Shown: piece after piece, positions 5,830 to 11,800 of the stretch
How positions within the stretch are numbered: position 1 is the stretch's first letter
How the letters are laid out: each line of letters opens with the position of its first letter
Origin: Acropora yongei
Lineage: Eukaryota > Cnidaria > Anthozoa > Scleractinia > Acroporidae
DNA length: 12,500 nucleotides
NCBI GenBank assembly: GCA_014634225.1
Contig: BLFN01000719.1
Location: 3,699,578-3,712,077 of the forward strand
Direction of reading: 5' to 3'
Translations under genes and position numbers: made by a program
The notes under the pieces: model-generated
Databases searched by the model: none
What the model was told of the DNA's origin: nothing
The model's input: only the letters and a program-made list of their open reading frames with translations

Positions 5830-8800
5830 GTGTAAATGCAATTTGCATTTGACTGAGGGCTACTAACTTTTATGAAGATTTTCATGCTGTCCTGTTCGTT
5901 TTTTAGCAGGTGGTACTGCCCTCATTACGAACGAGAGACTTGTTTGATTCACTTCCAGTGCTGTCCTGAGGGAAAACTGTATCCTTGCCACAAGTGTCAT
6001 AATGAAGCTAATGTCGTGATCGAAACTATGAGCGTGAAAGACCAAGAAAACGATAAAGCACATGGCAGTTCTGAAAGAAACACTGTGGAAAACACAGGCA
6101 CTTCTGTTGAACTGGCAACGGACGGTTCTTTAGCAGAGTGGAGCAATGACGGTGATCGACTTGAAAACCAAGCAGAGGTTGAAGTACAAGAGCCATGTGA
6201 ATCACCCAGCAATGTGGTGGAAAACACAGACACCCCTGGTGAAATGACAACGGAAAGTGCTGCAGCAGAGTGGAACAATGGAGATGATCGCCAGGAAAAC
6301 CTAGCAGATGTGGAAGAACAAGAGCTATTTGAATCACCCATTAATGTGGTAGAAAACACGGACACCCCTGGTGAAATGACAACGGAAAGTGCTGCAGCAG
6401 AGTGCTGGAACAATGCAGATGATCGCCAGGAAAACCTAGCAGATGTTGAAGAACAAGAGCTATTTGAATCACCCAGCAATGTGGTAGAAAACACAGACAC
6501 CCCTGGTGAAATGACAACGGAAAGTGCTGCAGCAGAGTGCTGGAACAATGGAGATGATCGCCAGGAAAACCTGGCAGATGTTGAAGAACAAGAGCTATTT
6601 GAATCACCCAGCAATATGGTGGAAAACACAGACACCCCTGGTGAAATGACAACGGAAAGTGCTGCAGCAGAGTGGAACAATAAAGGTGATCGCCAGGAAA
6701 ACCTAGCAGATGTTGAAGAACAAGAGCTATTTGAATCACCCAGCAATGTGGTGGAAAACACAGACACTTCTGCTGAATTGACAATGGGAGGTTCAGCAGC
6801 AGAGTGGAACAATGAAGCTGAACAACCAGATAATTCAGGACCGACTGGTAACCGTGATGCTGCTTTGAAAAAGAGAGGTTGTAAAGATGTTAAGGATCTA
6901 AAGTCACTTCCAAGATCAATCCATTTAGAGGCAACAGCATCTGACGGTACTTTTCTTCAGTGCAGAGAATGTGGACACCAACAAAAGGTATGTGATCTCT
7001 GTCACAAAATTAAGGTTTAACTCTGTGCAAGAATATGTGATCCTCTGATGTCAATTCTTTGTTTCAGTAGCACGTGCTAGGGTTTGGTTATTGTTTCATG
7101 GCCTCTTGGCTGTCTTGTTTTCTTTGTTTTGATGTCATCTGTGAGTTTGACGGCTTCTCACACTGAGAATAAGCCAAAACTATATTGCTGCAGAGAAAAG
7201 GTAGACAAGTCACTGGGCCAGTGGTTCTGCATTTTGGTTTCACTGAATGCCAGTCCTGTCACTAAACTAACCAACAGCTGTTTTACTGGCTGGTCTTTGC
7301 TTGGAAGTTGTGCTCCTTTGCAGCACCTTTTAATAGTCAATAATCTGCCTCCCACTAGAATTAGAATTTTGTTCTCTGCTATCAGGACCAAAATGCACAT
7401 TGTGTGTGGCAACAAACATAAGAAACAAATGCATAGTTTAAAGTATTTCCTTGACACTGTATGGTTCTACAAAAATCTTCAGAAGTGATTGATGACTACA
7501 AAACATCATTGAGCAACAAACTGATTACAAAGAAATTATATGCTGTAACAGATATAAGGTTGGCTGTAAATCTCTAATGTACAGAGTCTTTGATTTTCTA
7601 TTGTTTTATCAGAATGTCTTCTTTGTTGCTAATGTTTGTTATTTTTGACTATGGGTTTGTTTCTAATGTTTGGGTTTATAATGTTCCTTTAAGTATAAAA
7701 TTGAAATGGCCGAAGAGGAAGAATTTTTATTACTCCTATCAGTTGGTTTGGCCTTGAAATATCCCGTAGAAGAGCAGTCAGTGCAGTAATTTCTATTATT
7801 GCTATCATTATTTTACAATGAAGTGAATTCTTAAGTAAGATTTTGAAGGACTTATTTTATTTACTAGGAGCTCTTTAGCTACATTACCACTTGTTGTGCG
7901 GTTTAAAATAGAACACCCCTGTTTAGGCAACAATGGGTGCAAGCAAGGAGTGGCAGACTGTGTTTGGTGTCCATATACCAGAATTAAGACCAGGAAGTCT
8001 TTTCATGTGATGGTGTCAGTACAAAAGCTATTGTGATTGGTTATTTAGAAACCCTGATTGTTTGTTTCAATGTGGTGGAGCATTTGGACCAACAAACTTC
8101 CCCACTGGAAAATTATTATTCACCAGTTTCTAAAATGAAGAGGTTCTTCCAGTATTGCATATAATGAAATACATGCTGATTACAACAAATGTTGCAAAGT
8201 CTGTTCTCTCACAGTTCAACTCTAGTTCAATATTGTTAGCGTTGAGGAAAAGACGATTAAGGTCATGAAGTATCCTCCTAAACGAACCTAAGGGTGTGTT
8301 CGATTGACACTGTTCTGGAATAAGAGTAAAGGCAATAGCCTTCAAATTTTTCTTTGGAGTTAAATGCAGGATGATTTCTCAACAAAATTTTGTTGGAAAA
8401 CAATGCTACAAATCTTATTTGTAAATCCGATAACATCAAAATTCTTGTAAACATGATTTTTAGACATAAACCTTCGCATTCTTATTCCGGAATGAGGCCA
8501 ATCAAACGCACTCTAAGACACAAGCCTGCAAATGTCTAATGTTACAAACACGTATTGTATGCCTAGACTTAATGGGACACTTTGTGACATATATCAAAAT
8601 TGAGCGTGCATCTTATTACTTGTAATACTGGACCCAAGTGAACTTTAATGAAGTAATGAAAGTCATTTGAACATTACGAGGTGAAATTTTGTAAACATAA
8701 AAAGAATTGCCAGTACCAATTCCTCTGAGGACATCACTCTGTCAGACAATGATATCCAACCCCCACATATAACTCCAGGGTACAAAGAGAGGATTGTGAT

Positions 8801-11800
8801 GCCATTGTTTTTTACTTTTCCTTTAGTTTTCTGAAAAGTGTGAGTCTTGTGGCAAGGTGTTTGCAAAGTACTTCTGTAACAAATGCAAGCTACTTATTGA
8901 AAAGGATGTTGATGCCTATCATTGTGATAAATGTGGGATATGCAGGTAATCATGTGCTTAATAAAATGTGCCAAAGCACTTTTCACTTCCTATCAAAATG
9001 ATGATGTGAGCTTGAATTTGAACATCTCTCAGTTGATTTTATAGCTTATTGGTGGTAGCCATGAACTCTTGCTGATGCTGCTCATAGCTTATGCTGTTCA
9101 GAGTCGTGTTCAAAAAATCTTGTGAATAATAACAAGCAGTATGAAAGAAAACAAATGTCTTGAGGGCTGCATGCTATCATTTTTATATTTTAAAATAAAT
9201 AATAATTATTGAGTCTCTGCACAATGATTAAAAGTTAAAAAAAGTTGATTGACTAAAGCTTTTATTTGGCTCATTGATATTGCACTCTAATTTTTTCTAT
9301 TCGTGTCATACCGTATATCTAAAATCTAATGATATATATGCACAGAGATTTCTCTTGCACATACTTATACTATATGAACTCCAATTTCTTACTCATTGAA
9401 TTTTGAAAACATTAGAATGGAGCCCTCAAAACGTTTTTCTTTCATACTGGGTTTTATTATTTATAATTGTGTGCGCAATTGAAAATTGGAAACAAAGAAG
9501 AATGTAGATTGGCAATTCTCACAAACAAAGGAAATGAAAAATTTGCAAAGAATCTTGTTTACACACAGTTGCACTTTAATGTGGAAGCCAACTGGGAGAG
9601 GCCATCTATCAAATTAAGAGTTAAAATAAACATGAAAGTATCAAGAGACCCAACTTGAGGAGGCAACCGGGTGGCTATTTACTAAGCATGGTGGAGTTGA
9701 ATTCTACACCAATCTTGTTTGGTGATTCTCCAGCAGGCAAAGTTAGCATAATCCCCACAGTACCACGCCATGTCCTTAAATAGTATAATAAATTTAATTC
9801 ATTCAAGAATTTGCTTCAATAATTTTTCGTATTCAGAACGGGGTGGCTTACACCCACTTCAGTGAATAATTTTTAATTATTATATATAAACTGCAGGCAG
9901 TACTCTTTCAGCTCTCTGGGCCTGATCAGTGTAGTGTTGATGTGTGAGATGGAGCTAAAGCTCAAAAAGCCACCCAGAAATGTCCCACGCTTGTGGTAAC
10001 ATCTAAGCCATGCCAGAGAGCTCAAACTAGAGAACTAGTGAACATGTTGTCCTTATTTATACTTTCCTATAATAATATTGAAGGAAGATGGTCATACTTT
10101 GACTCTGTTTAATGCATACAAGTCTGTTTCATAGAGAGAGCTCTGCACTCATCTGTGCTTAATATAGTGCTTGATGCTCTGTAAAAAGCACTGATGAGTG
10201 GTAGAGCTCTCACTCTATACAAAACTAAGCTGTATGTATTAAAAAGAGTCAAAAGTATGTCTTCCATCGATGTTCTTGTATTTGATCTACTCATACTAGT
10301 ATTGAACACTCTTGAAGCATGAAATCATAAACAACTACTGGAACACACACACACACATTTATATATATATAACCTCACAAGAGTTCAGGCTTCAGGGGAT
10401 AATCATCCTTTATTACTACAGTGCTGGTTTATGTGGTCCAACATTACAGATTTATATGTCTATTTATTTTTTATTTTTCAAAGAGGGAACAAGTCAGACA
10501 ACTTCCACTGTGATGAATGCAATGTTTGTTTGTCCTCATCTCTGAAGGGAAACCATAAGTGCTTTACTAATCGTGGTCATGATCCCTGTGCCATTTGCTT
10601 AGAGGCAAGTGATCCTTCTGATTGTCTGTACTTAGTCACTCATCCATTCATTCAATTATTATCTTTTCCCTTGAATCATCCATTATCTGCCAATGTTTGC
10701 TTCTGTCCCTCCATCCATCTATTCATGCATAGTTCACCCATTCACTCCTCCCTCTACGCATCCATCCATCCATCATACTCTTCGCTCCTCATTCTAGCCA
10801 TTAATTCATTCATCCATTCATCAATGCCTTGAGACTTAAATAAAGTGATTATTATTGTTATCATTATCATTATCATTATTATTATAATTATTATTATTAT
10901 TGATGAAACATCGACTGTTAGTCATTTAGTCTATTTCAGACCCTCCCCGGCGGCCAAGCCACTTCACATATTCACTTCAAACTTACCTTACCCATTGTCT
11001 ATTTTGTCATTTAGGAGGTGTTTTCAGGTGCCATTGTCCTCCCCTGTTTTCATATGATCCACGGCGAATGTGGTGTAAGGCTTCTTCAATTTGGAAGGTA
11101 AGTGCCTCCTTTATACAGGAAACGAAGGAACCCCTTTCCCGTGCTAACGACGCATTTCACAGCCAGCAAAATTCGAAACTTCCTCGGGATACCTCGTTTT
11201 CAGGGTAAAGAGAGAGGACACCGCAGTAGTCACAACATCGGTTGTGAGGTGAGGCATAGTTAGTTAGTTAGGGTGAGGCTTACGTCCCAGTGTGGTTGGC
11301 AAGATGTTGCGAAATACACGCAGGTCTATATTCGTTCATTTTCAAGATCAATCTATTCGACACCTTTGTTTCGATTTACGATTTTATATTCATTCAGGAA
11401 TGTCAAATTCAGTCAGAAACAAAATTCATTCAGCATTTTCTGCGCAACAACTTCGGTTACATAACACGCTACTTTTCGCGCCATTGCACCGTGCAACAAA
11501 ATGGCGAGGCGAGCGAGTCGAATGGGACATGGAAGAGATAATAAGAAGATCACTTCAAAGACGAACGAACTTAAACGTGCATTTGTTTGGCGATCCTGAA
11601 CGTCAACTGTTAGGTTCGTAAATTATGGAAATATACTCCGAGATCGTCAATGTGAACCAAGATTGAATGTGAATGACTTGAAAGTCTCACAATTTCAGAT
11701 TTAAATAACAAAGGCAGCTTTTCTCTCTGCTTATGTTAAGACCCTGAGAGTTGGTCCCGCAGACAGCTAAATCCCGCAACTTCCCGCAATCTCACCGTAG

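Follow-up and report, generated by a model that had tools for sequence, protein, structure and literature searches.

Can a single zinc-binding domain be held open by more than 300 residues and still be a single domain? This question is raised by a gene on the forward strand of a 12,500-nucleotide stretch of Acropora yongei DNA (assembly GCA_014634225.1, contig BLFN01000719.1, positions 3,699,578 to 3,712,077), hereafter termed the window. A first-pass annotation had noted a CHY zinc finger broken by about 320 acidic, repeat-rich residues within one in-frame exon, and our gene model confirms this. The split finger is real and family-wide. Judged by its sequence and its place in a tree, the encoded protein appears to be a coral paralogue of RCHY1/Pirh2 and not RCHY1, and is presumably a RING-H2 ubiquitin ligase. 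The surprise lies in the presumed ligand that is kept beyond the spacer and in the position of the spacer beside the substrate clamp.

Gene model and the interrupted CHY finger

The gene has six exons (5786-12047, + strand; 6,262 bases with introns) and encodes an uninterrupted protein of 546 residues. Exon ends were picked by eye from GT/GC-AG sites and the reading frame. Exon 1 (5786-5829) starts with an in-frame ATG at 5786 and ends at the donor AG/GTGTAA; the first 15 residues are identical to those of the Acropora muricata relative P0001. Exon 2 (5910-6987; donor AAAAG/GTATGT) carries the N-terminal half of the CHY domain (N-half), the spacer and the first knuckle of the C-terminal half (C-half) with its first CxxC. 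Its acceptor is a NAGNAG pair (5904-5909) allowing a start at 5907 or 5910, both in frame, which adds or removes one residue directly before the CHY motif. The coding frame of exon 2 has no stops, compared to 38 and 18 in the other two forward frames, and the open frame is therefore not due to chance. Exon 3 (8827-8945) covers C379 to C413 of the C-half, which is Pirh2-like with invariant Cys/His columns, and exon 4 (10484-10604) the last CHY knuckles and the start of the RING (C449, C452). The middle of the RING-H2 (C465, H467, H470, C473) is found in exon 5 (11015-11097), and its end (C485, C488), the C-terminal tail and the stop codon TGA in exon 6 (11852-12047). All introns are GT-AG except intron 4, which has an apparent GC donor (GCAAGT) at 10605-10606. 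Beyond the stop at 12045-12047 the frame continues with VEMSNLPG, which is the tail of A. muricata P0001; the window protein thus ends nine residues before the end of that tail, and EM-N-like tails are also found in P0004, P0005 and P0012.

The protein has a CHY domain followed by a RING-H2. The RING was matched by zf-RING_2 of Pfam at 30.5 bits (cut-off 27.3), and its ligands are present as C-x2-C...C-x-H-x2-H-x2-C...C-x2-C. The zf-CHY family was matched in two separate stretches at 25.5 bits, which is below the cut-off of 31.3 because the domain is split. Profile positions 1-39 fall on residues 18-59, which include the N-half motif from C18 to H45 (CPHY...CC...CHKCH; 5917-6000). Between C44-H45 and C366 there are 320 residues; the split reported earlier as C45-H46 to C367 is real, and its numbers were one too high since exon 2 had been started at 5907 instead of 5910. 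The end of the break was also placed too far downstream. A conserved, ligand-like histidine, H353 (codon 6922-6924; H-x12-C), lies behind the spacer and had been missed, so that the interruption spans the 307 residues between H45 and H353 (residues 46-352; 6001-6921) and does not extend to C366. C366 and C369 follow in the first part of the C-half (6961-6987).

The ligands had been described as well kept, and the Cys/His pattern of the CHY zinc fold, a six-zinc N-terminal domain, is indeed retained on both sides of the spacer. N-half Cys and His residues are kept in all 10 spacer-family members that have an N-half. A histidine 13 residues before the C-half CxxC, the presumed fourth ligand, is found in 12 of 13 members, the exception being P0012. 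RCHY1-type proteins have a histidine 12 residues before the CxxC (19/19 parsed, of 20), while the anthozoan and bacterial proteins without a spacer have a cysteine 15 residues before it (44/47 parsed, of 48); P0079 and P0065 gave no parse and were left out of these counts. In proteins without a spacer this residue lies 3-8 residues after the CxxCH, whereas spacer-family proteins have no further Cys or His for 21-84 residues after the CxxCH. In human Pirh2 we take the corresponding residue to be H50, in a stretch that the phmmer alignment to the PDB does not print. The simplest reading of the pattern is that the spacer entered a zinc site by opening the short loop between its third and fourth ligands. 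All four residues would then share one zinc ion, as suggested by the pattern and not by coordinates.

Relatives with and without the spacer

Relatives were searched for among proteins of 300-955 and 284-903 residues, and 20 proteins were taken out of 137 candidates, with P0001-P0012 being closest. They include P0001 from A. muricata (89% over residues 360-546), P0006 from Pocillopora meandrina and P0012 from Stylophora pistillata. An N-half followed by a spacer is present in nine of the 12, while P0005, P0006 and P0008 lack the N-half. In seven of these nine, N-half, spacer and C-half lie in a single reading frame on contigs of 1,620-3,211 bases, which could not hold a gene with the layout of the window gene (6,262 bases) and are best read as spliced messages.

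This bears on whether the spacer could be an artefact, either spliced out of the message or joined to an N-half from another gene. In favour of splicing, an acceptor-like stretch rich in pyrimidines runs up to 6960, directly before C366. However, exon 2 contains no GTRAG donor-like site, the phase at the end of exon 1 does not fit a junction at 6961, and the G+C content of the spacer (45.5%) resembles that of the N-half (46.7%) and not that of introns 1-4 (34-36%). Neither a message without the repeat nor an N-half in a different gene was found; the single frame on the short contigs led us to reject both, and we regard an artefact as nearly refuted. From these sequences the split appears to be a trait common to an entire clade of corals.

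In P0003 the N-half occurs twice (residues 24-51 and 171-198), each copy with acidic sequence behind it, as would result from the doubling of an exon. None of the 24 matches of a search started from P0003 was a new member of the spacer family.

A tree was built from 59 segments covering the CHY C-half and RING, hand-chosen from 95 after P0065 and one locus segment had been dropped and one duplicate removed; rows without a clear identity were labelled by us from gap and domain content. The 13 spacer-family rows fell on one side of a branch with support 92/94. Spacer family and no-spacer relatives together separated from the RCHY1-type at 100/99 (8/9 RCHY1-type rows), and the ninth RCHY1-labelled row, P0064, had a very long branch and grouped with the no-spacer rows. 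P. meandrina and S. pistillata each have one spacer-family and one no-spacer protein, and the two types are therefore paralogues. The C-terminal zinc ribbon PF14599 (zinc_ribbon_6) was matched at 69.4 bits in the control P0016, and gave no match in the window protein at E up to 1. The likeness to RCHY1 proposed earlier thus holds for the CHY and RING-H2 domains, while orthology to RCHY1 was rejected on the basis of the tree split and the missing zinc ribbon match.

The assumption that all no-spacer relatives are of coral origin had to be discarded, since some are close to Endozoicomonas loci; we use "anthozoan" for the named ones only. A scan of GTDB genomes gave 12 CHY-RING loci, eight titled Endozoicomonas and four from uncultured Gammaproteobacteria. 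An N-half was found in 14 of 17 reading-frame segments, some of which represent a single gene present in two loci that overlap. The gap was 19-21 residues in all 14 and none contained a spacer, which makes the spacer a host trait as far as these searches show. Several CHY-RING frames with long N-terminal parts were seen in Endozoicomonas genomes, chiefly ISHI1 (L001-L012). RING/CHY genes in Endozoicomonas clade B genomes have already been published (PMC9743535). In the open-licence PMC literature we found neither a split CHY finger nor this coral family described.

The acidic spacer, the fold and the substrate clamp

The 307-residue spacer contains 25% Asp+Glu and 6% Lys+Arg, and has a net charge of -61. 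Tandem Repeats Finder (TRF) detected an array at 6085-6821 with a 132-base unit, 5.5 copies and 90% matches (score 1105). The six units described before are five full units of 44-45 residues and a partial sixth. The term "polymorphic" is fair between species, as the window has six unit anchors and A. muricata P0001 has five. Four inner units of the window are 93-96% alike and three of A. muricata 91%, compared to 80-86% between the species; the first units are 82% alike between the two. Since inner units are closer within than between species, homogenisation of the inner array appears, from these sequences, to have run separately in each lineage. No Pfam family matched the repeat unit above cut-off (CW_7 and Thrombin_light were weak, below cut-off). 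Linear motifs guessed at by eye for the unit (ubiquitin-interacting, LC3-interacting and SUMO-interacting motifs and proline-directed sites) were dropped; counts of SP/TP (Ser-Pro/Thr-Pro) range from two to nine across nine measured spacers. The A. muricata counterpart of the spacer mostly had a predicted local distance difference test score (pLDDT) below 50 in AlphaFold2.

Such an array could be a passive spacer, an expandable repeat in a surface loop of an intact fold, drifting under little constraint beyond frame and solubility. Repeated homogenisation predicts the observed likeness of inner units; other corals do not share the unit sequence, and P0005 has, by eye, repeats of its own. However, length and acidity are kept: every measured spacer of the family is acidic, with net charges from -18 to -61, and the shortest measures 117 residues. 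None has shrunk away, although the length limits of our searches would miss short ones. Synonymous change per site exceeds non-synonymous change in five of six pairs of the four inner units, a weak sign of constraint from small numbers. We consider a passive spacer possible and on the whole unlikely.

Whether the two halves form one fold was approached by phmmer and by AlphaFold2. Pirh2 structures were the best solved relatives in the PDB, and the halves align separately to Pirh2 7ynx, strongly for residues 364-493 and with the right motif at only 9.3 bits for residues 17-47. AlphaFold2 was run on one alignment of 18 rows, selected from 66 proteins, and on one of 12 rows, selected from 80. A mixed alignment that included six no-spacer rows gave a model with the halves joined, while an alignment of 12 spacer-family rows left the N-half at pLDDT below 50 and gave no match to it. 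The structure prediction proposed earlier thus gave one model with a single zinc fold and one that is silent on the N-half.

The unjoined model would also be expected if the halves were separate modules, with the N-half an independent, small zinc knuckle that is shifted, duplicated or lost like a cassette, and with C-half and RING together as the core. The doubled N-half of P0003 and its absence from P0005, P0006 and P0008 fit this. The H-x12-C kept behind the spacer, the invariant N-half Cys/His and the joined model speak against it, and the three proteins lacking an N-half may be truncated predictions, P0005 at least appearing 5'-cut. We find separate modules rather improbable.

Several observations weigh against a single fold in a single spacer clade. 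The joined model leaned on the six no-spacer rows, its Foldseek alignment to 7ynx covers only 138 columns, and Pirh2 structures were public when AlphaFold2 was trained. P0012 lacks the H353 equivalent, perhaps through a gap in its gene model, and only one of the two N-halves of P0003 could complete the fold. The three of 13 members without an N-half in the predicted protein still have the histidine, which weakens the argument that the N-half explains its retention. Finally, the support of the spacer clade is under the program's mark of 95.

In human Pirh2 the carboxylate of the last alanine of the substrate is reported to be held by Y23 and R41, and via water by R54, D94 and Q99, and R41A to abolish binding (PMC10148881). 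R41 is part of the CxxCH motif and R54 follows the next ligand by four residues; the two thus flank the insertion point. Both arginines are replaced. The R41 position is His in 10/10 spacer-family and 41/41 no-spacer proteins with an N-half and Arg in 18/18 of the RCHY1-type. The R54 position is Arg in 19/19 RCHY1-type, 0/12 spacer-family and 0/44 no-spacer proteins. In the nine aligned spacer-family rows the R109 column is R in all and the Y23 column Y in six and F in three. The D94 column is I in 9/9 and the Q99 column A or P, both columns being unsure owing to indels; the Q99 column is also I in 3/3 RCHY1-type control rows. Since clamp residues are replaced in spacer and no-spacer groups alike, the change predates the spacer or belongs to the same early period.

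The coral protein would therefore not read polyalanine tails as Pirh2 does, and its substrate choice has probably changed. Altogether, the explanation we put first, with about even chances of being right as a whole, is that of an RCHY1/Pirh2 paralogue in which a long and strongly acidic disordered loop has entered a zinc site between its third and fourth ligands. N-half and C-half would still meet in one fold, with the spacer looping out next to the site used by Pirh2 for the substrate's C-terminal carboxylate, and the acidic arm would probably emerge where the former degron groove opens. There it would most likely recruit or screen partners, and its length and charge would weigh more than its exact sequence. 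The substrate-binding or phosphorylation platform suggested earlier is a hypothetical role of the arm. A built-in gate, in which the arm folds back on the basic carboxylate pocket as a pseudo-substrate or charge screen and repeat number tunes the accepted substrates, is a long shot.

Elsewhere in the window, an inverted repeat at 2859-2993 has 66-base arms that are 89% complementary and three bases apart; together with a second inverted pair (2995-3018 and 3297-3320) it resembles a small transposon remnant. An open frame on the - strand (2-517) contains a stretch, GIPQGTKLAPLLFAIMVNDL, that we take to be reverse-transcriptase-like.

Comparison with known systems

Ligands that persist on both sides of more than 300 inserted residues would show how far a zinc fold can be opened, and a zinc site fed from both ends of a disordered arm would be a clear test case. 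The family would also represent a coral-lineage branch of quality-control ligases in which the substrate clamp is replaced. With RCHY1/Pirh2 (7ynx, 2k2c, 2dkt) the window protein shares the order of CHY and RING-H2, the Cys/His pattern and, in the joined model, the predicted fold. It differs in the loop (307 residues compared to about five), in the residues at R41 and R54, in falling in a separate clade and in giving no zinc_ribbon_6 match.

The no-spacer anthozoan proteins (Orbicella P0036, Pocillopora P0045, Stylophora P0055, Paramuricea P0057, Dendronephthya P0058 and Xenia P0059) belong to the same larger clade and share the His at the R41 position and the RING spacing, with no zinc ribbon in those scanned. 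Their gap from CxxCH to CxxC is 17-22 residues, and their presumed fourth ligand is Cys and not His. Residues 10-78 of Xenia P0059 gave a death-effector-domain match (E 4.2e-5, 24.1 bits, cut-off 35.9). The CHY-RING genes of Endozoicomonas, a coral symbiont, are related to these anthozoan proteins in the tree and, unlike the window protein, lack the spacer, so that host and symbiont ligases could be compared directly.

The bifurcated SET domain of SETDB1 is described as having an intercepting stretch of about 150 residues that is regulatory (PMC8397983). Its fold is unrelated to that of CHY, and the analogy is one of principle and not of kinship: a folded domain with a long insertion that still works.
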